This document shows, piece after piece, positions 45,110 through 58,714 of a stretch of 58,714 nt of DNA. How positions within the stretch are numbered: position 1 is the stretch's first letter; each line of letters opens with the position of its first letter. The notes below the pieces were generated by a model. It saw only the letters and a list, made by a program, of their open reading frames with translations. It was not told where the DNA came from and searched no databases. A program made the position numbers and the translations under genes. Origin of the DNA: Spirochaetales bacterium (lineage in GTDB: Bacteria; Spirochaetota; Spirochaetia; SZUA-6; JAFGRV01); assembly GCA_016930085.1 (NCBI GenBank), contig JAFGHO010000128.1, forward strand, positions 1-58,714, read 5' to 3'.

Positions 45110-45663
45110 ATGATGTCAAAGCCACTTCCGGTAGTCTTCCTGATTGTTCTTTGTATTGCCGCGCCACTTCAAGCCAGCTGCTTCTGTGACTTCGATAATA
45201 GCGGTATGGTCTCGATCGTTGACGCCCTCATTGTTGCCCGCTACGACGTGGAAACGAATGTCCTGATAGATCTCGAAGACGCGGATGTTAATCTTTCCGA
45301 GACCGTCGATATCGTCGATGCACTCCTGATCGCCCGATATTACGTAAAGCTTATCACTGAATTCAACAGAATCGACGATACGCCGTGCAATCCGGAAGCC
45401 AGTGCCGCGGCAATACTCGTCCCGGCTTATCTTGCGAAACACTCATCGCCTGGATTCAACGGCGTGATCTCGGGGTGAAAGTGAGGACACGGATCGCAGA
45501 TCGCGGACACACTTCAAATATCCTTATGGGTTTCGACTGCTTCGTCAACCGTCTTCACGATACAAGCGGAAAATGGAACGGGCTGACCGGTCTTGATTAC
45601 GAACACGACAGCATATTCACGCCCGAACAGCTTTCGTTTGCGAACATCGATATCTCGTTATAG
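45110..45663 (+). pseudogene. broken dockerin-GH26 mannanase-like gene
   Basis: A secreted dockerin gene damaged twice. The first frame (45110-45478) has a signal peptide, a dockerin pair with degenerate SIVDAL and DIVDALL repeats, and the GH26 start SSPGFNGVISG before a stop. A second frame (45385-45663) continues with MGFDCFVNRLHDTSGKW and GLDYEHDSIFTPEQLS, segments like those near the N-terminus of GH26 mannanases. A single frameshift around 45450-45480 joins them. The gene then stops after about 90 GH26 residues, where the family needs about 300, so the catalytic glutamates are gone. The truncation lies at the left edge of the AT-rich island. Confidence 0.75.
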
Positions 45664-45848: not shown

Positions 45849-48770
45849 ATGAATAAACTAAATCTGGAAATTATCAGACTGATAGAAAAACTGAAAACGG
45901 AGAAAATCATTCCGATGATTCACGGTACCGATCTCTCGTTGTTTGGTGATCAGGGAGACGAATTGATCAAATTCATTCAAAGCTACAGTGTTTTAAAGAA
46001 ACCGGAGAATATCCGGCAGGTTTTGCTATGGAAACTGAATATGCTTGAAAACAGAAACCGGCCTGAAATCGGGGGGGTGAAGTCCAAAGATATTTTCCGG
46101 CCGCTTTCAGGGATAGATAACGCGGCGGCCGAACTCCTCTATAACAGTATATTCAATCAGAAAGAATTCCTGAGTACACTGGAAAATCCGATCGAGATAG
46201 TCCTTTTCAGAAGGGGGAGAAGCGGAAGGGCACTGACAAATTTGCTGAAGGCCCTTCCGAACGTCAATACAACCATTCTTCTGAGCGGTACCGATGATTC
46301 CGGGAGCTGGTTCGAAGGTTCACGGCTGTTCAGGACCCCCGGTATTCCCGGATTGGGAAAGGCATTGCTCGATCTCGCAGGGGATCGCCACGTCAAGGAA
46401 TTCCTTTCAATTGAAATTACCAATACAGGTGAAAATATTTCGGTTTCTTTTAACAACCTTATTCACCGTTTGAAAGATCCGGGCAATAATCATTATGAAA
46501 TCCGAAATAATTCTATCAGAAAAGCTTTTTTTGCCGCGTTAAAAATTGACATAGTCAAAAGAAAATTAATAAGATCATATCTAGACTTTTTCCGTAGAGA
46601 TTGTAAAGATGCACTTTCTTCACTAGAATGCATACCATTCCGCAGCATTATTATACAAGGCGCCTATTATTATTACAGAGAGAAGAATAAAAATGTGTCC
46701 TGGAAAGAGATCATTGACGAATTGAGTACTAATTTATTCAGCCTTGGAGAAGGAAGCAAGGTTTTTTTTGTGACGGAGGAAAGGCAGCATCTTGTCGCAC
46801 TCGATGCAATGGGCACACTCTATTTTTCTGAAAATGCGATAACCTATTATCATGACACTTTCCATGATGATATCCCGTTTATCGGGATGTGGCTTATAAA
46901 CGAAAGTGTTGATGACAATTTCATCAACTCACTTGTCAGTCATATTGAAGGAAATTACTCCGGAGCACAAAAAATAATTGATGATATGGATATTGCTGCC
47001 GTTCCGGAACCATTCAGAGAAAGAACACAAAGCACAATCAGACGTTTCGACATAAAATACCTCGATGACATCAAAAAATATATGGATAGAAAAAGTTCAA
47101 ATAACGCCGGAATTTCAAAAGAATTGAAACTTGAAGATGAGGTCGTTGGAATTCTGAGGCGGGCCGATATTATCATTTTTTCCGATGCATATCTTGAAAC
47201 AAATATCGCGGGCTCACTCCTTGTCCCGGATTTAAAGGATGTTCTTAAAGGAACCTCAAATTTGAAGATATGTCTTCTGGGCATGGATTCGGATGACATC
47301 GATGAGATCCGGGCTCAATTAAAGGCTGAAAGAAATCTGGAAAATATCTACCGGTATCTTGTGTATAATTTAAATCCCCTAAAGAAAAATGATTGGAAGG
47401 AATTGCATCAATTCATCAATTATACGATCGGTGTTATTGGAGATTCTTTGGACAGTAATATTCATAATTTCACGGCAGATACAGTTTTTACTCAATATAT
47501 AGATAAGGCGAAAGATTCCAGGTATGGTTTCTTTCTGGCAACAGCTCAAGCCGAGATAATACTTAGTCTGCTGGGCATTACAAAAGCGGGTTTTGTCGTC
47601 GATTCCCAATACGGGCTTATGTCACAGAATATCCAATGCACATTAAATGAAAACGAAGAAAACAATCAACGAATGAAATATTCGGGATTCGGTCTTTTCG
47701 ACCTGCAACAAGTTAAAAGAAGTATTCAAAATGTAAGCAGTAATTTATATGACGGATGCTTTTGTTTCGATGTCGATATGACGATGCTGCCGAAAAAAGC
47801 GGAATTCCTTACCGATTACCCTGAGCTGGCCTATCTGTTTACTCAACTCCTGCGTATTCATGTTCCTGTTGCCATCATTTCAGGCAACAGCAAGGAAGAG
47901 CAAATACCGCGGATTATCAAGGCAATACAACAGGAAATGAAAAACGACAAATTCGGTTTCGAGAATCTGACATTCTATGTCGACGGCGGCGCAACAAAGA
48001 TCAAATTCGACAATAATGGAGACTGTATCGAAGATACTGAAAGGAGACATAATAACAAAATTGATCCGGAAAGCTATAAAACCATTAAAAATGCGATCGA
48101 TTCAGCATTAAAAGACATTAAAAATGATATCAATATAATTATAGAGGATAAAAAGCAACAGGAATTATTTAAAAAAGAAGCAGCCGAGAAATACCAGGAC
48201 CTCGATCTTATTCCATTCTGGGATGTTGAATCATGGGAGCCCGAATGGGTGACCCCGAAAGAACTCCAGGATAAAAAAAAGAAAAAGGAAAAGATAGTTT
48301 TTCCGTGGGTGGAAGTGCGGGGTAAAACGGAAGATGACAACACAATTGCCAGTATCGCCATCAAACCGACTCCAATGGTCGAGGGCGATATGGCGTTTGA
48401 CATCCGTGATGAACTGCAACGCCGTATAATAGAAAAGCTTGGTAAGGAAAATCAGTTCAATATCCGTTCGGGCGGACGGTCCACAACCGATATTACCCTT
48501 AAAGGAGCCGATAAAACGGCCGCGGTAAAGGATTTCATCGATTCAAATGATCTGGCCCAAAGAAAGGTTTACTATTTCGGGGATGAATTTTATGAAAGGG
48601 ATTCACAGCTTGGAAACGACGAAGTCATCGCCAGGGACCCGAATCTTTCATTTGTGCAAACTTTCGCCGTTAATTCCGACAATATCGACGGAGCCCATGA
48701 TAAAACAATCTGGATCGGCCGTTCTCCGCAGGCGGTACTCGAGTTTCTCGAAAAAGTAGTACCGGAATAG
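45849..48770 (+). CDS. divergent CofD/YvcK-like protein fused to a HAD phosphatase
   Basis: Protein of 973 residues. Residues about 115-180 match the start of the CofD/YvcK fold: FRRGRSG at 120-126 replaces the usual Gly-rich loop, D149-D150-S-G-S fits DDGGS, and PGIPGLGKALLDLA (164-177) fits PGDxxxxLLALA. Residues 436-475 (ADIIIFSDAYLE, SLLVPDLKDVL) match the later nucleotide-binding segment of the same family. The region between and an N-terminal helical lead are unassigned. From about 636 a HAD-type phosphatase begins, with motif I D641-V-D643-M-T645, motif II S678-G-N, and motif IV G911-D912-E913 with G-N-D at 922-924. GGAG lies seven bases before the ATG. Enzymatic role of the first half is doubtful because its loop is altered. 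Composition is AT-richer than the flanks. Confidence 0.75.
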   Translation: MNKLNLEIIRLIEKLKTEKIIPMIHGTDLSLFGDQGDELIKFIQSYSVLKKPENIRQVLLWKLNMLENRNRPEIGGVKSKDIFRPLSGIDNAAAELLYNSIFNQKEFLSTLENPIEIVLFRRGRSGRALTNLLKALPNVNTTILLSGTDDSGSWFEGSRLFRTPGIPGLGKALLDLAGDRHVKEFLSIEITNTGENISVSFNNLIHRLKDPGNNHYEIRNNSIRKAFFAALKIDIVKRKLIRSYLDFFRRDCKDALSSLECIPFRSIIIQGAYYYYREKNKNVSWKEIIDELSTNLFSLGEGSKVFFVTEERQHLVALDAMGTLYFSENAITYYHDTFHDDIPFIGMWLINESVDDNFINSLVSHIEGNYSGAQKIIDDMDIAAVPEPFRERTQSTIRRFDIKYLDDIKKYMDRKSSNNAGISKELKLEDEVVGILRRADIIIFSDAYLETNIAGSLLVPDLKDVLKGTSNLKICLLGMDSDDIDEIRAQLKAERNLENIYRYLVYNLNPLKKNDWKELHQFINYTIGVIGDSLDSNIHNFTADTVFTQYIDKAKDSRYGFFLATAQAEIILSLLGITKAGFVVDSQYGLMSQNIQCTLNENEENNQRMKYSGFGLFDLQQVKRSIQNVSSNLYDGCFCFDVDMTMLPKKAEFLTDYPELAYLFTQLLRIHVPVAIISGNSKEEQIPRIIKAIQQEMKNDKFGFENLTFYVDGGATKIKFDNNGDCIEDTERRHNNKIDPESYKTIKNAIDSALKDIKNDINIIIEDKKQQELFKKEAAEKYQDLDLIPFWDVESWEPEWVTPKELQDKKKKKEKIVFPWVEVRGKTEDDNTIASIAIKPTPMVEGDMAFDIRDELQRRIIEKLGKENQFNIRSGGRSTTDITLKGADKTAAVKDFIDSNDLAQRKVYYFGDEFYERDSQLGNDEVIARDPNLSFVQTFAVNSDNIDGAHDKTIWIGRSPQAVLEFLEKVVPE

Positions 48771-48783
48771 CCCCGACAGCGGA

Positions 48784-49869
48784 TCACATGTCCGTACCGG
48801 GACAATCGACAAGACCGGCATTATACAAAGCCGATAGCTGTGTGGTATACTCCTTGGAATTCTTCTTTATCCTGCCGCTTTTTATCATGTCCCGGAAGCG
48901 ATACAGGTCTCCGATACCTGAGCGGCGGATATAATGCAGGACCTCCGGGTGTATTTCCTGTTCAACGAGGGGGGTATCGCAGGCTATTTCATGCCGGATT
49001 TTTGACGAACTTACCCTGTCGTTTTGCGTCAAGTCATCGGCAATAAACATTCCCCCATTCCATAAATCAAGTAACCAACGTTGTTTTCCGATCAGATTCA
49101 AATCAATCGGAAAATCCTTTCTGTTTGAATAAAACACCTGTATGCCGTGTTTGAATAGTGTATGTAAGACAAGCTCTTTTTCGTTTTCATTGCCGTATTT
49201 ATTTATCTTGTCAGACCCCGTTATATAAACCCATTGTACGCGGGGATTCATGGCAAAGAGAAGGCAAAAAGCGGCTATATCCGTTATATTCCTTATAATG
49301 GTTAATGCCATTGTACCGGATACAGCACCTTGCTTCAAAGAGGAGGGGAGCGGCCATAATGCGGCCTTATATATCTCGGCCATATCAAATCGAAGAGGAC
49401 AATACCGTATCCAGGTTCCCCATTTATCATTTGCATACACCTGTGCCATATGCAATCGATGACGGAAAGCGGTGATTTCCGGTTTTTCCGGCACCGTGCC
49501 TCCGATGAGAAACAGAACGCCATCCAATTTCAGCTGAACGACGGCGTTTAGGGCCGCAGTTATATGGCCATAGTGAACGGGATCAAACGAACCCGGCATT
49601 ATTCCCACATATGCAGAGGAACTGCATATTTCATCATTGTGGTGACGTGATGCGGCTTCAGCGGCCTCATGAAGGATATAGGCGAATGGAAGTCCGGTGT
49701 TTCGTTTCTCCATACGATTTTCAATTTCTTTTGTAAAGGTGCCATACAGATTCGATTTTTCCTTATTATGAATCCAGATATCACTCCATTGCAAGGGGAT
49801 GAATGTGTCGGCTGCCCTGTTTCTATATATCCATTGCAGCCTGGTTTCGGCTGCCTGTACCCCGGTCAT
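48784..49869 (-). CDS. NadD-like nucleotidyltransferase with N-terminal extension
   Basis: Cytoplasmic nucleotidyltransferase of 361 residues. The core has the ATP-binding GSFDPVHYGH motif (93-102) with HxGH, and SSSKIRHE near 290, equivalent to the ISSTxIR of nicotinate- or NMN-adenylyltransferases. Such enzymes transfer AMP or CMP to a phosphorylated acceptor such as NaMN, NMN or phosphopantetheine. About 85 residues precede the core and about 45 follow, unlike housekeeping NadD (about 200 residues). No ribosome site lies before the ATG; the promoter at 49877-49906 predicts a leaderless transcript. It faces the CofD-HAD gene end to end, 13 bases apart, and diverges from the TIR gene. Confidence 0.78.
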   Translation of the reverse strand: MTGVQAAETRLQWIYRNRAADTFIPLQWSDIWIHNKEKSNLYGTFTKEIENRMEKRNTGLPFAYILHEAAEAASRHHNDEICSSSAYVGIMPGSFDPVHYGHITAALNAVVQLKLDGVLFLIGGTVPEKPEITAFRHRLHMAQVYANDKWGTWIRYCPLRFDMAEIYKAALWPLPSSLKQGAVSGTMALTIIRNITDIAAFCLLFAMNPRVQWVYITGSDKINKYGNENEKELVLHTLFKHGIQVFYSNRKDFPIDLNLIGKQRWLLDLWNGGMFIADDLTQNDRVSSSKIRHEIACDTPLVEQEIHPEVLHYIRRSGIGDLYRFRDMIKSGRIKKNSKEYTTQLSALYNAGLVDCPGTDM

Positions 49870-49876
49870 GGTATCT

Positions 49877-49906
49877 ATTCTATCAAATGTATAATCATTA
49901 TGTCAG
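49877..49906 (-). promoter_or_regulatory. promoter giving a leaderless NadD-like mRNA
   Basis: Minus-strand CTGACA (49901-49906), 18-base spacer and TAGAAT (49877-49882). Its expected start of transcription falls on or beside the ATG at 49869, which has no ribosome-binding site. The 319 bases of 49870-50188 hold only this and the divergent TIR promoter. Confidence 0.5.
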
Positions 49907-49961
49907 TGATAATTAAAGAAAAATGATCATCTTATTATTCGCTTTATATTAAAAAAAATAT

Positions 49962-49991
49962 TTGAAATTCTGTTCGATTTGTGATTATAAT
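49962..49991 (+). promoter_or_regulatory. promoter of the TIR-domain gene
   Basis: TTGAAA (49962-49967), 18-base spacer and a perfect TATAAT (49986-49991). Transcription would start near 49998, giving an unusually long leader of about 190 bases before the TIR start at 50189. I see no known riboswitch in that leader. Confidence 0.7.
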
Positions 49992-50188
49992 GATCCGTTG
50001 AAATATCAAGAGAGGTTCGATATTGATTATTTAATACAAACCACTTCCGTTCAAGGCACTCCCCTGGAGATCGTTGAAAAGACTTTAGCAGATTTCTTGT
50101 TAATGGCTATGCCGTTTATATCCGGGTATATTTTTTATTCCCGGTTAAAAGGCAATTGAATCAAAACGGATAAAGGAGTCTATTCTAC

Positions 50189-51268
50189 ATGGTTTTTATC
50201 AGTTATTGTCATGAAGATACGGTATTGGCAAGAATCATCTATCATATTTTCATAAAAGAAGGGATTGACTGTTTTTTTGCCGAAAGGAATATCCATATCG
50301 GTTCATACTTTGATAAGGAAATATTATCTAAGATACGAAGTGCCCGGTTGCTCATCGTTTTATGGAGTGCTTATTCAATAAAATCCACATGGGTGCAGCA
50401 GGAAATAGGTATTGCAAAGGGACTTGAAAAACCGGTTTGGCCTATCGCAATAGATGACATGAGTGTCAATAACACCTCGTTGTTCAGAGGCTTTATCTTC
50501 AATACACAGGGATCATATCTGCATACAGCCGAAGATCCTTGTGAAAAGATCAGGGCGCTTGCGATAGAAATAAAGAAAAAGATGACAGACGATTCCTGTT
50601 ACAGCAACTTCAGTCCAAAAACCGATCAATTTTATATCGGTCTGGAGAATCGTACAAAATCATTACTGGGTATTATTCAAGAACAAAAAAGGCACATTGA
50701 CAATGACTATATAATACGCTCCAAGTCGAATTATTCGTCGTTTTCATTTTCCGATGATTTATCATGCTGGTACAACAACTCGGCAGAAATGACGTCATTG
50801 CTTATGGCCGAACAGAAAGCACTATCGGAAATGATAAAAATCTGTCGAATAAAGGTGATTATATGGCCCAAGAAATATAATAACGAATATATAAAGAAGA
50901 GACTAATAAATCTTATCGATTTTTTGGAAGCCAACAAGGATTTTGAAAGAGTACGATTCGTTTTGGGTTTCCCGAATACGATGGAGAGCTATGGAAGATT
51001 TTCCTACAATAGAAATATTTTTATTTTCGATCATAATATAATGCTCAACGGCATTAAAACTTCGGGAACACCCGGTTTTGATGTGACAATCGTTTCTCAT
51101 CATACCACGACAATAAAAAATGAAATCAGCGCTTTTGATTCAGCATTCGAATCACTATGGAATTTACATAAACAAGAATGCTGTTCAACCGACAAGAATA
51201 CCGAAGCTGAAGAAATACGCGGATTTGTCATTAACTATTTAAAAAGGATAATGCCGCCCGGATGTTAG
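50189..51268 (+). CDS. TIR-domain protein with unassigned C-terminal domain
   Basis: Protein of 359 residues. Residues 1-130 are a TIR domain: VFISYCHEDTVLA box 1, then GIDCFFAERNIHIG, then LLIVLWSAYSIKSTWVQQEIGIA. The Glu equivalent to the catalytic residue of NAD+-cleaving TIRs is E72 in the W-V-Q-Q-E segment. Residues about 150-359 form a separate domain I do not recognise, ending in a helix with FDSAFESLWNLH; it could be the ligand sensor or a second effector. AAAGGAG lies ten bases before the ATG. Bacterial TIR proteins often act as NADases in phage defence or as signal-making enzymes. Its convergent neighbour is the Nudix-DUF89-YvcK gene, 20 bases away. Confidence 0.85.
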   Translation: MVFISYCHEDTVLARIIYHIFIKEGIDCFFAERNIHIGSYFDKEILSKIRSARLLIVLWSAYSIKSTWVQQEIGIAKGLEKPVWPIAIDDMSVNNTSLFRGFIFNTQGSYLHTAEDPCEKIRALAIEIKKKMTDDSCYSNFSPKTDQFYIGLENRTKSLLGIIQEQKRHIDNDYIIRSKSNYSSFSFSDDLSCWYNNSAEMTSLLMAEQKALSEMIKICRIKVIIWPKKYNNEYIKKRLINLIDFLEANKDFERVRFVLGFPNTMESYGRFSYNRNIFIFDHNIMLNGIKTSGTPGFDVTIVSHHTTTIKNEISAFDSAFESLWNLHKQECCSTDKNTEAEEIRGFVINYLKRIMPPGC

Positions 51269-51288
51269 GCGGAATACATATATACGGC

Positions 51289-54200
51289 TTACATCCCCCT
51301 TTCCAGCGCAATACGGAAAATACCCATGAGTGATTCGGGAATCAACCCCGGAAAATATTCTACACGCGTTGCACCTTTTGACTTGACTATTTTAACATTT
51401 TTACCTATTGAATCAACTTCGTGAATATTTCGCAGTTGTATCCCTTGTTTTAATAGGTAATCGAAGTCTTTTTTTGTAGCGTATAAAGCTCCGCGGTATC
51501 TTCCTTTTTCGCTTCTGTGAGAATACAATTCTTCCGGCTGGTCGAGGTAAGACAATATTTCCATTTCCATATCGGTAATATGATATTTCCTTATTATATC
51601 CTTGTTTTTATTCAGAAAATCGACATATTTATTCGGGAAACGCTTTGTCCCGTCCTTGAATTTTGCAAGATCCGGTTTTATCCATACATATTTTATTTTT
51701 TTCATCTCCCCTTCAAGTTCTTTTGCAATTATCCGTGGAACGACAATATCCGTGAAAATATCCGAAATCCTAATTTCACGGTTACATGATGTTAATTTAT
51801 TCTTTAGTTTTACGGAACAATATTTATTGACTACCTTTTCGATAAAGCGAACATGATCAGTAACGGTCATCTGCCTGGTTTCATCCATTTTCACATGGTT
51901 GAGAATGAGGATGCGCCGTTTATCCTGTGCCTCAAGAAACACATCGATGACTCCGGGGATGACAAGCTGAGAGAGTTGGCTGCTGATAAGAGAACCGGCT
52001 CCCATTATGATGAGTTCGGAAGATTTCAATAATCTTATATATTCCCTGTTGCTTTTTGGCGGTTTCCCAATCGGACTTACTATCCCTGTCATTTTTCTTC
52101 CGCCATTATGGGGGAATTTATCGATATACTTTTGACCGGTTATCCTGTTATTGACTCCGTCATAGGCATCTTTATACGCTTTTTTAATTAATCGGGGGAC
52201 GGGTTTTTCATAATCAAGATAAAGCGAGCATTCATCAAATGATACGGGAATCGACAATATCAATGGAGATAATGCAAGGGCTTTCTCAAGTATTATCAAG
52301 GCGGAAATTTGTTGTCTGGTATTTATTCTTTTCCTGTTGCCGAGTGCATCGAATAATTCAAATGCCGCGATAACATTCAAGTTTCGAATGCTTGAATCTC
52401 TCAGCGGTAAAATTGAACTGACACCTTTTAAAAAACGTTCGTCAATTATTCTGGCCAGATTTAGCTGATTAGAAACAAAAGAAAGGAAATCATCGGCTGT
52501 GCCGATATCAGATGTCGATGATAACAACTCATCACTTATTCGATTGATGACACCTTCAACCATCGATGGAGGATTTTCCGAAAAGCGGAACGACAGAATA
52601 GCCTGTTTCCCGTTGTTATCCATAGCGTCCTGAAGAATGGCGGCGAGATCACCCACTCCAAATACAAATCCACGTTCCTTTTTCAGTGCATTTTGTAACA
52701 AACCGGTACTACCCCCGTCATCGGTACATGGAACACCTGCGACTGTCGGTATCTTCAATTGTTTTAATGCCCTGAGGGTTACGGCACTAAATCCCCCTCC
52801 TCCTCCTATCGCAAATACAGGATAATGACGCTGTCGGAATTCCCGTATTTCTTTTTCTCCAGGTAATTCATCCATGATCCCTAATATGATGCTTGTAAAT
52901 GTCCGTTTGAGTTTTTTTGCCTCTATTTGTATACGCTTTATCGCTTCCTCCAGATTGCCACGGTATATGTATTTGACAATTAATTTAAAATTTTCATGTA
53001 GTATGGCTTTGACATAGTTTACCGTTGTCTGAAGAATGAAAGAAGATGTTTCATGAATACCGTTATCCTCGTCACTGAAACTGATAAAATGATCTACTCC
53101 GGGTGTCAACCTTACAAACCCGCATTCACCTTCCGCAGTATCGCCATGTATCGCCTTTGCGACCCGTCCATTTACCCTGAAAGCAATGAATACTGGTTTT
53201 TTCCATCCACGAATTTCAGCATATGCCTGGCCTTCAGCTACAATCACATCCGAAGCGGCAATTGCTTGCGCGACATCTCTATCCAGATTTGCCGGGTCAA
53301 GACCGTGGATACGCGGTCCGTTGTTGAGTATTTCAAACCGTCCTGTATATTGAACCAGGAGATTTCTAAAATAATCATCCAATGAATCCATGAGGATAAC
53401 TGTCTCATGATAGGATAAATCATTGCCCGGGAATCCTGACTTTGGAATAAATCTAATTCGTGCATGTTTATTCTGATCAAGTATCTCCTGGACGATTGCG
53501 ATACTGACAATGGCTTGTTCGGCCGTACCCGGAAGGTAAACAATATCTATAACAGGTTCATCCTTTATATATCGTTGATAAAAATCAGATAAAAAATGCA
53601 TTCCTCCGAGTTTTGGTGACAATTCCTGAATACTGAAACGGATATTTTCACTAATATCTTTTTCTCGCAGCGTTTTCTGAAAATACGGATTATTAAAATC
53701 TGCTTTAGATGCACTCAGCCCAAGCTTAATTAAATAATGTAAACGTTCAAATCCATTTTCCGGTATTTTCCCCTTATGATCATTAAAAAGTATCTTTCCC
53801 AGCTCAAGGCATTGTTTTGTTATTGTCCGAGTAGGATATTTCAATACTTCACGGGAAATAATATCGGAATCATTCTCCAGCCATCTCAATACCGCACAGC
53901 GGGCAACTTCGATATCCTGCAGATTACTCAATGAATCCCTCAATCGCGAACCGTTTGATAAAGGCAATTCCATAAAATCCGATACAAATTGTTTTATTTT
54001 TGGTTCAACCGCCTTTAAATAATCACGAAATTCATTATTCCGATTATATGCAATCGATTCCAGCAAATTGTCAATATATATTTCGCAGGGATCATTATAT
54101 TTTTCTTTCCAGAATGAATTGTCTAAAAAACGTCTCCGAAATTGTCCCATTTGATAAGAACCAGCCATTTGATTGGTGCCATGCCGAAATATTTCATATA

Positions 54201-54960
54201 CCGTCGAGATGTTCGCCTTCTTGCCCGGGGGATCATAAAAATAATTCAGCAGGCTGATTGTAAAGCCTTCTTCGTGATCGAAATAGCGGGAAACAAACGG
54301 ATATTTGATGAGAAATCTTTTTGAACTTTCCATCCTACATTCTTTACAGTAAACCTCTAGCTTTTTACGAATCGAATGTATCGAAAGTGAAGAATATATT
54401 CCGCTTGCTAATACAGAAGCAGAGTGTGAATAAAAGGCTTTTATAAGCTGTTCCCATGACCAAAACTCGATGTGGGAAACTTCGCCCATACACCCTTTCA
54501 CTTTCAATTCTTCCGGTGACAATGCGGCTTGTTCCGTTGCATGGTGAATTATCTGATCTTCATGTTGGCCTGTTATTTTTAAAATGTATATTGTTTTTCT
54601 TTCAAGATTAATAATACCTTTTTCCGGTATGATTACACGTTCGATCACTTCATCATCAGTTGAAATGGCTTCGAGTTGATCTTTTTTTATTTTTAAAGAT
54701 ATTTCTTCATATATTTCTTCTACTGCTGCATCAAGAGGATTTTGACCGGATTTGAGGTGTCCCCCGACGATATCGTAATATCCGGGAAACAAATCTTTGT
54801 GTTTGCTTCTCTGTTCTATCAATATTTCTCCGCAAGAGTTTATGACAAATATCGATATAGTCCGATGCCATATCCCCTTTTGATGTGCTTCAGATCTTTT
54901 GACCGGTGTATCGAGTGGATTTCCATTTTCATCCAATACATCCAAATATTCTTCCTTCAT
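51289..54960 (-). CDS. triple fusion: Nudix, DUF89 and YvcK/CofD-like domains
   Basis: Protein of 1223 residues, three enzyme folds in one chain. Residues about 1-175 are a Nudix domain of the IPP-isomerase-like type. Its Nudix box (66-88) keeps the metal glutamates E81-E82 and E85-E86 but has Gln in place of the first Glu and Ser in place of the last Gly. Residues about 210-625 are DUF89/ARMT1-like: GND at 512-514 and EGQAYAEIRG (576-585) fit, but the DN of the usual DNAGE motif is lost in YLPGTAEQ. Residues about 710-1223 are YvcK/CofD: GGGGG (719-723), DDGGSTG (747-753), MGAGSL (986-991) and NHVKMDET with TDHV (1021-1036). GGAG lies seven bases before the ATG. All three folds act on nucleotide-linked or phosphorylated metabolites. 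Confidence 0.82.
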   Translation of the reverse strand: MKEEYLDVLDENGNPLDTPVKRSEAHQKGIWHRTISIFVINSCGEILIEQRSKHKDLFPGYYDIVGGHLKSGQNPLDAAVEEIYEEISLKIKKDQLEAISTDDEVIERVIIPEKGIINLERKTIYILKITGQHEDQIIHHATEQAALSPEELKVKGCMGEVSHIEFWSWEQLIKAFYSHSASVLASGIYSSLSIHSIRKKLEVYCKECRMESSKRFLIKYPFVSRYFDHEEGFTISLLNYFYDPPGKKANISTVYEIFRHGTNQMAGSYQMGQFRRRFLDNSFWKEKYNDPCEIYIDNLLESIAYNRNNEFRDYLKAVEPKIKQFVSDFMELPLSNGSRLRDSLSNLQDIEVARCAVLRWLENDSDIISREVLKYPTRTITKQCLELGKILFNDHKGKIPENGFERLHYLIKLGLSASKADFNNPYFQKTLREKDISENIRFSIQELSPKLGGMHFLSDFYQRYIKDEPVIDIVYLPGTAEQAIVSIAIVQEILDQNKHARIRFIPKSGFPGNDLSYHETVILMDSLDDYFRNLLVQYTGRFEILNNGPRIHGLDPANLDRDVAQAIAASDVIVAEGQAYAEIRGWKKPVFIAFRVNGRVAKAIHGDTAEGECGFVRLTPGVDHFISFSDEDNGIHETSSFILQTTVNYVKAILHENFKLIVKYIYRGNLEEAIKRIQIEAKKLKRTFTSIILGIMDELPGEKEIREFRQRHYPVFAIGGGGGFSAVTLRALKQLKIPTVAGVPCTDDGGSTGLLQNALKKERGFVFGVGDLAAILQDAMDNNGKQAILSFRFSENPPSMVEGVINRISDELLSSTSDIGTADDFLSFVSNQLNLARIIDERFLKGVSSILPLRDSSIRNLNVIAAFELFDALGNRKRINTRQQISALIILEKALALSPLILSIPVSFDECSLYLDYEKPVPRLIKKAYKDAYDGVNNRITGQKYIDKFPHNGGRKMTGIVSPIGKPPKSNREYIRLLKSSELIIMGAGSLISSQLSQLVIPGVIDVFLEAQDKRRILILNHVKMDETRQMTVTDHVRFIEKVVNKYCSVKLKNKLTSCNREIRISDIFTDIVVPRIIAKELEGEMKKIKYVWIKPDLAKFKDGTKRFPNKYVDFLNKNKDIIRKYHITDMEMEILSYLDQPEELYSHRSEKGRYRGALYATKKDFDYLLKQGIQLRNIHEVDSIGKNVKIVKSKGATRVEYFPGLIPESLMGIFRIALERGM

Positions 54961-57320: not shown

Positions 57321-57407
57321 CTTCTGGTACTATAGTAACATTAATCCTGAAATTCAACTATACGCTGTGAAATTGCATTGGAATGCGTCGATCATGGAGA
57401 AAAAATT

Positions 57408-58714
57408 ATGAAAACGATGTACCGGACTCTTCTACGCTTTCATCTTCTATTAATCGCGTCTTTTCTATTGTTCGCTTTTTTATCTTGTGTTCCCAAAAAC
57501 CCGTCTTCCGGACAATGGATACAGACCGGCGGCCCCTATGGCGGCTACATCCATTGCTTCGCGGTCAGCGGCATTAATATGTTTGCCGGAACCGAAGGCG
57601 GCGGTGTTTTTCTATCAACGGACAATGGTGAGACCTGGCGTGAAGTCAATTCGGGTTTGACGAGTAAAAATGTCTATTCCCTTGCAGCAAGCGGCCCGAA
57701 TATCTTTGCCGGTACCGGAAGCGGCGTTTTTTTTTCCGCCGACAATGGTGCGAACTGGAAGCCGATCGATTCATCGCTGATACATACGTATACCTCCTCC
57801 CTTGAAGCAAGCGGCCCGAATATCTTCGCCGGTACCGGAAGCGGCTTTTTTCTTATCACCGGCGATGGCACTCACTGGCGTGCGGTCACCGCGGGTCTGG
57901 CATACATGAATGTCACCTCCATCGCCATAAACGGCGACAATATGTTTGCCGGAACCGAAAGCGGAGGCGTTTTTCTTTCAACAGATATCGGTGCAAGCTG
58001 GATTCCGGTGAATTCGGGTTTGACGAACACCCATATAAATTCCCTTGCCCTGCAAGGGACGACGATTGTCGCAGGGACCTACGGCGGCGGTGTTTTCCGT
58101 TCCACCGACAATGGCGCAAGCTGGACCGCGGTCAATTCGGGTTTGACAAACGAATATATCTATACGCTTGCCGTAAGCGGAACGAATATTTTCGCCGGAA
58201 CCCCGGGCGGTGTTTTTCTTTCCTCCGATACCGGCGCAAACTGGAAGAAGGTCAATGCGGGCCTGACCAATACATTTGTCTACGCTCTCCTCATAAACGG
58301 CCCGAATATCTTTGCCGGAACGAACGGCGGGGGAGTTTTCAGTTCCGCCGACAACGGTGTAAACTGGAGGAAGGTCAATGCCGGTTTGACGAATACCTTT
58401 GTCGGATCAATTGTTGAAAACGGCAAATACGTTTTCGCCGGAACGAACGGCGCCGGTGCGTTTCTTTCCTCAGACAATGGCGATCGTTGGGAAGAGATCA
58501 ATTCCGGTTTGACCAATCCGTATGTCTTCTCTCTTGCTGCGAGCGGACCGAATATTTTCGCAGGGACCAATGGCGGCGGCGTTTTCCTTTCCTCAGATAA
58601 TGGAGAAAGCTGGAAAGCGGTCAATGCCGGTTTGACAAACACCTGTGTCTACAGTCTTGCAGTAAGCGGTGAAAATATTTTTGCCGGAACGTTCGGCGAC
58701 GGCGTTTTCCTTTC
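57408..58714 (+). CDS. lipoprotein with about ten BNR/YCF48-like propeller repeats (incomplete)
   Basis: Open frame that runs off the window's right edge; 435 residues are visible. GGAG lies eight bases before the ATG. The signal peptide ends with Phe-Leu-Ser-Cys (Cys about residue 27). Then come at least ten repeats of about 39-41 residues, each with a GxNxFAGTxGGGVFLS core, DNGxxW (Asp-box) and V(N)SGLT ending. This is the pattern of sialidase Asp-box or YCF48/photosystem II stability-type beta-propellers. DNA copies are similar, so recombination could change repeat number. The function is probably binding to a surface or polysaccharide; no catalytic residues are seen. Confidence 0.85.
   Translation, partial: MKTMYRTLLRFHLLLIASFLLFAFLSCVPKNPSSGQWIQTGGPYGGYIHCFAVSGINMFAGTEGGGVFLSTDNGETWREVNSGLTSKNVYSLAASGPNIFAGTGSGVFFSADNGANWKPIDSSLIHTYTSSLEASGPNIFAGTGSGFFLITGDGTHWRAVTAGLAYMNVTSIAINGDNMFAGTESGGVFLSTDIGASWIPVNSGLTNTHINSLALQGTTIVAGTYGGGVFRSTDNGASWTAVNSGLTNEYIYTLAVSGTNIFAGTPGGVFLSSDTGANWKKVNAGLTNTFVYALLINGPNIFAGTNGGGVFSSADNGVNWRKVNAGLTNTFVGSIVENGKYVFAGTNGAGAFLSSDNGDRWEEINSGLTNPYVFSLAASGPNIFAGTNGGGVFLSSDNGESWKAVNAGLTNTCVYSLAVSGENIFAGTFGDGVFL

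Follow-up and report, generated by a model that had tools for sequence, protein, structure and literature searches.

What does a CofD/YvcK domain do once most of its conserved ligand-binding residues are gone, a phosphatase-like domain has been attached to it, and a better-kept member of the same superfamily is encoded a few kilobases away? This question is raised by P0001, a fusion protein of a Spirochaetales bacterium (assembly GCA_016930085.1; 5.36 Mb, 135 contigs, approximately 96% complete). We analyzed one entire contig of this assembly (C128, JAFGHO010000128.1), whose 58,714 nucleotides are referred to below as the window. CofD/YvcK proteins connect nucleotide-activated metabolites with cofactor or cell-wall synthesis; to our knowledge, the function of several branches, such as that of the GAK system, is not settled. 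Judged by sequence comparison, P0001 may be a dead CofD module that carries a phosphohydrolase or phosphomutase of the HAD-IIB kind and probably works with the CofD domain of the neighboring protein P0004, a reading to which we assign a probability of about 0.4. The parts of P0001 are as follows.

45849..48770, + strand: P0001 fusion open reading frame (ORF), 973 aa, ATG start, without internal stop
residues 1-110: N-terminal extension
46179..47363, + strand: degenerate CofD/YvcK-like domain, residues 111-505, from hhalign and residue comparison
residues about 506-629: linker
47736..48767, + strand: HAD-like domain, residues ~630-973, with weak family matches and motifs I-IV in order

An AGGAGA ribosome-binding site lies approximately 8 bases 5′ of the P0001 ATG.

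The first half of P0001 resembles CofD/YvcK proteins

A preliminary description of this DNA had aligned the first half of P0001 with CofD/YvcK motifs. The Pfam family PF01933 matched P0001 at E=0.0055 and 16.4 bits, below its curated cut-off of 30 bits. We compared P0001 by hhalign with a CofD/YvcK/GAK profile of our own (9 sequences, 383 columns), and residues 111-505 aligned with columns 6-305 in a single co-linear stretch, with a score of 45.7 and E=4.9e-5. Full shuffles of P0001 (60 sequences) scored 16.2 on average and 22.9 at most, 60 local shuffles reached 22.6, and the reversed sequence scored 17.7. A natural background of 118 ORFs (300 aa or longer, drawn from 15 regions of this genome) scored 16.1 on average (standard deviation 2.9), with a maximum of 27.5. 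Sub-profiles made of 2 to 5 of the 9 sequences gave far weaker scores (22.6-34.4), and the CofD signal of P0001 therefore requires the mixed profile. Against the full 9-sequence profile, residues 715-1046 of P0004, its CofD domain, scored 100.8, and no significant match between P0001 and P0004 was found by BLASTP. By profile comparison, then, residues 111-505 are remotely homologous to CofD/YvcK proteins and beat all of the controls, and the likeness first described is present within residues 110-480 at the profile level.

Decay of the ligand-binding residues

The motif counterparts in P0001 and the domain with which they were compared are listed below.

46206..46226, + strand: FRRGRSG, residues 120-126, at the position of the Gly-rich phosphate loop
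46290..46310, + strand: TDDSGSW, residues 148-154, counterpart of the DDGGSSG motif, both Asp retained
46347..46361, + strand: PGLGK, residues 167-171, counterpart of the invariant GD.R, Asp gone
46632..46646, + strand: IPFRS, residues 262-266, counterpart of the invariant GN, both residues gone
47181..47204, + strand: SDAYLETN, residues 445-452, counterpart of GPGSLYTS; G, S and S gone
51823..52818, - strand: better-kept CofD/YvcK domain of P0004, residues 715-1046

Eighteen of the 19 invariant family columns were used for this comparison, the start methionine (M1) being excluded. P0001 retains 7 of the 18 residues and the CofD domain of P0004 retains 13. Therefore, the presence of one better-kept and one degenerate CofD domain in the locus is supported at the residue level; the preliminary description had suggested one active and one decoy or regulatory domain. 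Its accompanying claim of a lost Gly-rich loop stands in part. The FRRGRSG stretch is present as described and the GG pair has become R122-G123, but G-R-S-G persists at residues 123-126 and the loop of GAK-type relatives is short as well (FSGGSAL).

As aligned, the decay extends beyond this loop. GD.R is replaced by PGLG, GN by RS and GS...S by AY...N; all three motifs are invariant across the 9 aligned relatives, and all are gone in P0001, which retains D149, followed by D150. Acidic residues (Asp or Glu) are missing from the whole interval of P0001 between E156 and D175, into which the invariant GD should fall. In FbiA, a CofD protein, the metal is held by Asp45 and Asp57 (PMC7253369), and Asp57 would correspond to the GD column. 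The GlmR triple mutant D40A/D41A/N198A has approximately 100-fold lower activity (PMC10128056). At these three columns, P0001 reads D, D, S (D149, D150, S456) and P0004 reads D, D, Q. The CofD domain of P0004 departs from the family at Ala773 (for Arg), at R859 (for Gly) and at Gln998, which occupies the column of GlmR Asn198.

The same residues could be read as re-specialization of the CofD half, in which TDDSGSW and the remodeled loop form a new active site and P0001 acts as a stand-alone bifunctional transferase-phosphatase. Both Asp of TDD are retained, R121, R122, R124 and K171 could replace the Gly backbone as phosphate ligands, and the ORF is long and intact. However, three motifs that are invariant in 9/9 relatives have all disappeared, and no acidic residue near position 168 substitutes for the second metal ligand, so that we regard re-specialization as unlikely.

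The second half of P0001 is likely a HAD domain

Four motifs of the HAD superfamily were found in the second half of P0001, in agreement with the DxD-T, SGN and GDE/GND motifs of the preliminary description.

47769..47783, + strand: DVDMT, HAD motif I, residues 641-645
47880..47888, + strand: SGN, HAD motif II, residues 678-680
48504..48515, + strand: GADK, HAD motif III, Lys 889 aligned with the Lys of HAD-IIB proteins
48579..48620, + strand: GDEFYERDSQLGND, HAD motif IV, residues 911-924, with GD911-912 and ND923-924

These motifs, which we take to be motifs I-IV in the usual naming (DxDxT, S/T, K, GD...D), stand in the expected order as D641-V-D643-M-T645, S678-G-N, K889 and GD911-912...ND923-924. 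A regular expression for this order, composed after the motifs had already been seen, matched 0 of 20,000 shuffles. Family profiles matched the HAD half weakly: HAD-IIB TIGR01484 in two stretches at E=0.0015 and 18.6 bits (cut-off 41.8), TIGR00099 at E=0.0033, PF08282 on this half alone at E=0.0035 (below its cut-off), and PHROG 29277 at E=5e-5, a match graded as weak. On an hhalign profile of 9 HAD-IIB proteins, the half scored 23.8 and ranked second of 119 natural proteins, and 60 shuffles reached 28.6. The second half of P0001 is thus likely, but not proven, to be a HAD domain.

The HAD half also aligned with the alpha-phosphoglucomutase structure 4bnd (E=0.021) at motifs I-II and III-IV. 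This match would fit a mutase of the phosphomannomutase (PMM) or alpha-phosphoglucomutase kind that feeds a sugar-nucleotide step, in the way that GlmR makes UDP-N-acetylglucosamine (UDP-GlcNAc). The GD...GND spacing, presumably longer in P0001 than in Cof-type HADs, counts in the same direction. However, a match to prolyl 3-hydroxylase, which we took as chance, outscored 4bnd (E=0.0023) and thereby shows how weak the latter is. Additionally, no PMM family appeared among the Pfam matches up to E=10. A mutase of this kind is therefore quite improbable.

A probably acquired cluster of four genes

P0001 is followed by three genes.

48784..49869, - strand: P0002, 361 aa, NadD-like nucleotidyltransferase with HYGH and VSSSKIR motifs
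50189..51268, + strand: P0003, 359 aa, TIR protein (TIR_2 E=8.6e-16) with an S60...W68...E72 motif
51289..54960, - strand: P0004, 1223 aa, Nudix, weak ARMT1-like and CofD/YvcK domains (the "triple fusion")

P0002 matched PF01467 (E=2.3e-8) and NF000840 (E=5.2e-13, yet below the cut-off). It is an additional copy, as the canonical NadD sits elsewhere in the genome (contig C93). The C-terminal part of P0003 (approximately 230 aa) matched no Pfam family. In P0004, Pfam recognized PF00293 (4.7e-8), PF01937 (0.041) and PF01933 (9.9e-17); residues 405-579 are weakly ARMT1-like (DUF89), with E=0.041 for the whole protein and 0.0095 on the part. Its Nudix box reads GGHLKSGQNPLDAAVEEIYEEI, with GQ where GE is expected, and its CofD domain lies approximately 3 kb past the end of the P0001 ORF. 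P0001 and P0002 converge, P0002 and P0003 diverge, and P0003 and P0004 converge.

The GC contents of P0001 to P0004 are 0.404, 0.455, 0.365 and 0.388, and the values at third codon positions (GC3) are 0.43, 0.48, 0.39 and 0.35. The 118 host ORFs have a mean GC of 0.50 (minimum 0.4055) and a mean GC3 of 0.58. The codon score of P0001 is above that of 6% of the host ORFs. P0002 is the least clear case, with a GC above 12% and a codon score above 3% of them. On both sides, the flanking GH10, BNR-repeat, DinB and histidine-kinase genes have host-like composition; acquisition of the stretch of approximately 9 kb is therefore probable, and the contig is no simple chimera. On compositional grounds, the four genes (45849-54960) probably form an acquired AT-rich cluster. 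No exact direct repeat of at least 12 bases was found between its two flanks, and tRNA and Rfam scans found no tRNA and no Rfam family within the window.

Two ORFs outside the cluster carry repeats. The short ORF at 45110-45478, immediately 5′ of P0001, encodes a dockerin-like repeat pair (CDFDNSGMVSIVDALIVARYD...; dockerin being the family name we presume) and is an apparent fragment of a secreted protein. The ORF at 57378-58712, which runs off the contig end, has tandem repeats (VFLSTDNG..W) that we take to be BNR/sialidase-like.

Both CofD proteins lie within 9.1 kb of the 5.36 Mb genome, and no further CofD of weight was found genome-wide. A weak match on another contig (C67, E=0.24) fell in a 285-aa frame that we read as a GGDEF protein. 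Two of 120 phylum genomes, the present one among them, had a CofD protein, and that of the other (L022) resembles the GAK-system CofD.

The composition of the cluster bears on two further explanations. The stretch might be decaying imported DNA, its four genes unrelated passengers and P0001 a relic heading for loss. The alternating orientations, the missing relatives, the degenerate CofD domain and the dockerin-like fragment immediately upstream would all fit such decay. However, the ORFs are long and intact, a ribosome-binding site is present, the HAD motifs are kept in order, and two rare CofD domains stand together; we doubt that decay alone accounts for the locus and consider it rather unlikely. 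The cluster might also be an anti-phage system centered on nicotinamide adenine dinucleotide (NAD), in which the NadD-like, Nudix, CofD and HAD parts make, modify or clear the nucleotide signal of a TIR effector. This proposal is favored by the mid-cluster position of a TIR protein that has the S...W...E motif, by the extra NadD-like protein and by the apparent acquisition of the cluster. Against it, PADLOC gave only partial TIR matches in P0003, a single chance-level match in P0001 and, in P0004, a match to the Nudix region, with nothing convincing for P0001 or P0002. No known defense family with these partners was recognized, and the scans made returned no phage, viral or plasmid relatives. 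Such a defense role therefore seems improbable.

Relatives and comparison loci

P0001 was found in 1 of 61 related genomes, 1 of 26 genomes of its order and 1 of 392 genomes of the phylum sample, each time as itself. The class sample gave matches in 3 of 394 genomes, itself included; these four genome sets overlap. The other two class matches were dropped, one (L069) with five stops inside the matched stretch and one (L070) in a frame read as a cation transporter. No convincing relative of P0001 was found in GTDB by exact eight-residue peptides, in viral contigs by an exact-peptide scan, or in plasmids or phages by tblastn. P0004 without its Nudix part had none in plasmids, viral contigs or phages, and only itself in the phylum sample (1/392). 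In an alignment-led GTDB scan with P0004, one locus stood out among the matches listed, RapZ-YvcK of an Armatimonadetes metagenome-assembled genome, and was judged no relative of the fusion. Viral scans led by CofD alignments returned nothing or one YvcK locus. No such fusion turned up in the accessible portion of the literature on CofD with Nudix, HAD, DUF89, GAK or ATP-grasp.

On plasmids, we compared 6 CofD/GAK loci with flanks of 3 to 7 kb, one of which (L038) is truncated on one side where its record ends. Loci with short flanks (L025, L029/L038 in a first view, and L032) were excluded from the neighbor count. A Nudix gene adjoins CofD in 3 of the 6 loci (L024, L035 and L039) and does not in L036 and L037; a HAD gene lies within 5 kb of CofD in L037 and L039. 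On the rhizobial plasmids L039 (3824-9792) and L038, a YvcK-like gene is accompanied by genes for Nudix, HAD and inositol monophosphatase proteins; the Sinorhizobium plasmid locus additionally carries metallophosphoesterase and Na/Pi transporter genes. These rhizobial loci possibly represent a phosphate-related CofD pathway.

A putative role for P0001 and P0004

Returning to the reading of P0001 as a dead CofD module with an attached HAD enzyme, we suggest the following mechanism. P0002 would activate a phosphometabolite by nucleotidyl transfer. P0004 would transfer the activated compound through its CofD domain and cleave it through its Nudix domain, and the HAD half of P0001 would strip off the phosphate. 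The presumably dead CofD half of P0001 may bind a nucleotide or a sugar-nucleotide-like ligand, or may pair with the CofD domain of P0004, and in either case would bring or control the HAD phosphatase. We consider pairing because family members dimerize, as reported for FbiA and Methanosarcina mazei CofD (PMC7253369) and for GlmR/YvcK (PMC10128056). In favor of the proposal as a whole count the CofD homology and residue loss of P0001, its ordered HAD motifs, the closeness of the only two CofD proteins found in the genome, the low GC shared by the four genes, and the recurrence of Nudix beside CofD in 3 of the 6 plasmid loci.

Several points weigh against this proposal. The structure models of the full 973 aa, predicted from a single sequence (mean predicted local distance difference test score, pLDDT, 35.1), and of residues 96-520, predicted from a four-row alignment (38.2), are of very low confidence and too poor for use. 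The result with the 9-protein HAD-IIB profile is only marginal, and a 3-protein HAD-IIB profile scored the P0001 half no higher than shuffles. The alternating gene directions argue against a single operon. The activity of P0004 is not assured because of its own losses (A773, R859 and Q998, plus GQ for GE in the Nudix box). The searches made found no relatives that would show the P0001-P0004 pairing to be conserved. The Nudix and HAD proteins of the comparison loci are distant from those described here (best Nudix E=0.018; Rhizobium HAD E=0.66), and the link to the plasmid loci therefore holds only at the level of domain kind.

The data hint at P0001 and P0004 as a sensor-and-enzyme pair without prior description. 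With P0001 beside P0004, it can be tested whether the CofD fold serves as sensor or as partner in a dimer. If the two proteins cooperate, an undescribed pathway is indicated; if they do not, P0001 is an orphan fusion on acquired DNA and of modest interest. We further speculate, as a very unlikely extension, that the four genes are an imported module in which the dead CofD-HAD and the live CofD-Nudix proteins form a mixed CofD assembly that builds, transfers and dismantles a nucleotide-activated phosphometabolite feeding or restraining the TIR protein. If so, the CofD/YvcK superfamily would include a pair of enzyme and pseudoenzyme, and the locus would encode a signal or cofactor pathway that is new.

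Comparison with known systems

CofD/FbiA proteins (PF01933) are 2-phospho-L-lactate or phosphoenolpyruvate transferases of coenzyme F420 synthesis. P0001 is like them by remote profile, with the same motif order and the DD kept. Unlike them, it scores below the Pfam cut-off, has lost the second metal Asp, GN and GS...S, and has a HAD half attached. YvcK/GlmR (TIGR01826) belongs to the same superfamily, and D149 and D150 of P0001 are the counterparts of its D40 and D41; however, P0001 has S456 for Asn198, scores 12.9 bits against a cut-off of 196, and lacks RapZ/WhiA neighbors. GlmR itself is described as an accessory uridyltransferase of UDP-GlcNAc synthesis (PMC10128056).

The CofD protein of the GAK system (TIGR04357) has, likewise, a long insert ahead of the "SIGNL" region, and GAK loci can carry Nudix and phosphotransferase genes. 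Unlike that system, P0001 has no TIGR04357 match, P0004 reaches 15.3 bits against a cut-off of 340, the P0001-P0004 cluster showed neither an ATP-grasp nor an HprK-like gene, and the GAK proteins seen are without a HAD fusion. With regard to HAD-IIB proteins (Cof/YidA/YbiV) and the HAD-type phosphomannomutase, P0001 stays below all cut-offs, has a long charged insert between motifs II and III and, unlike HAD-IIB phosphatases, separates GD from ND in motif IV by ten residues, yet it is like them in its four ordered motifs and in its weak HAD-IIB matches. P0001 is, in sum, a new domain combination built of known folds.

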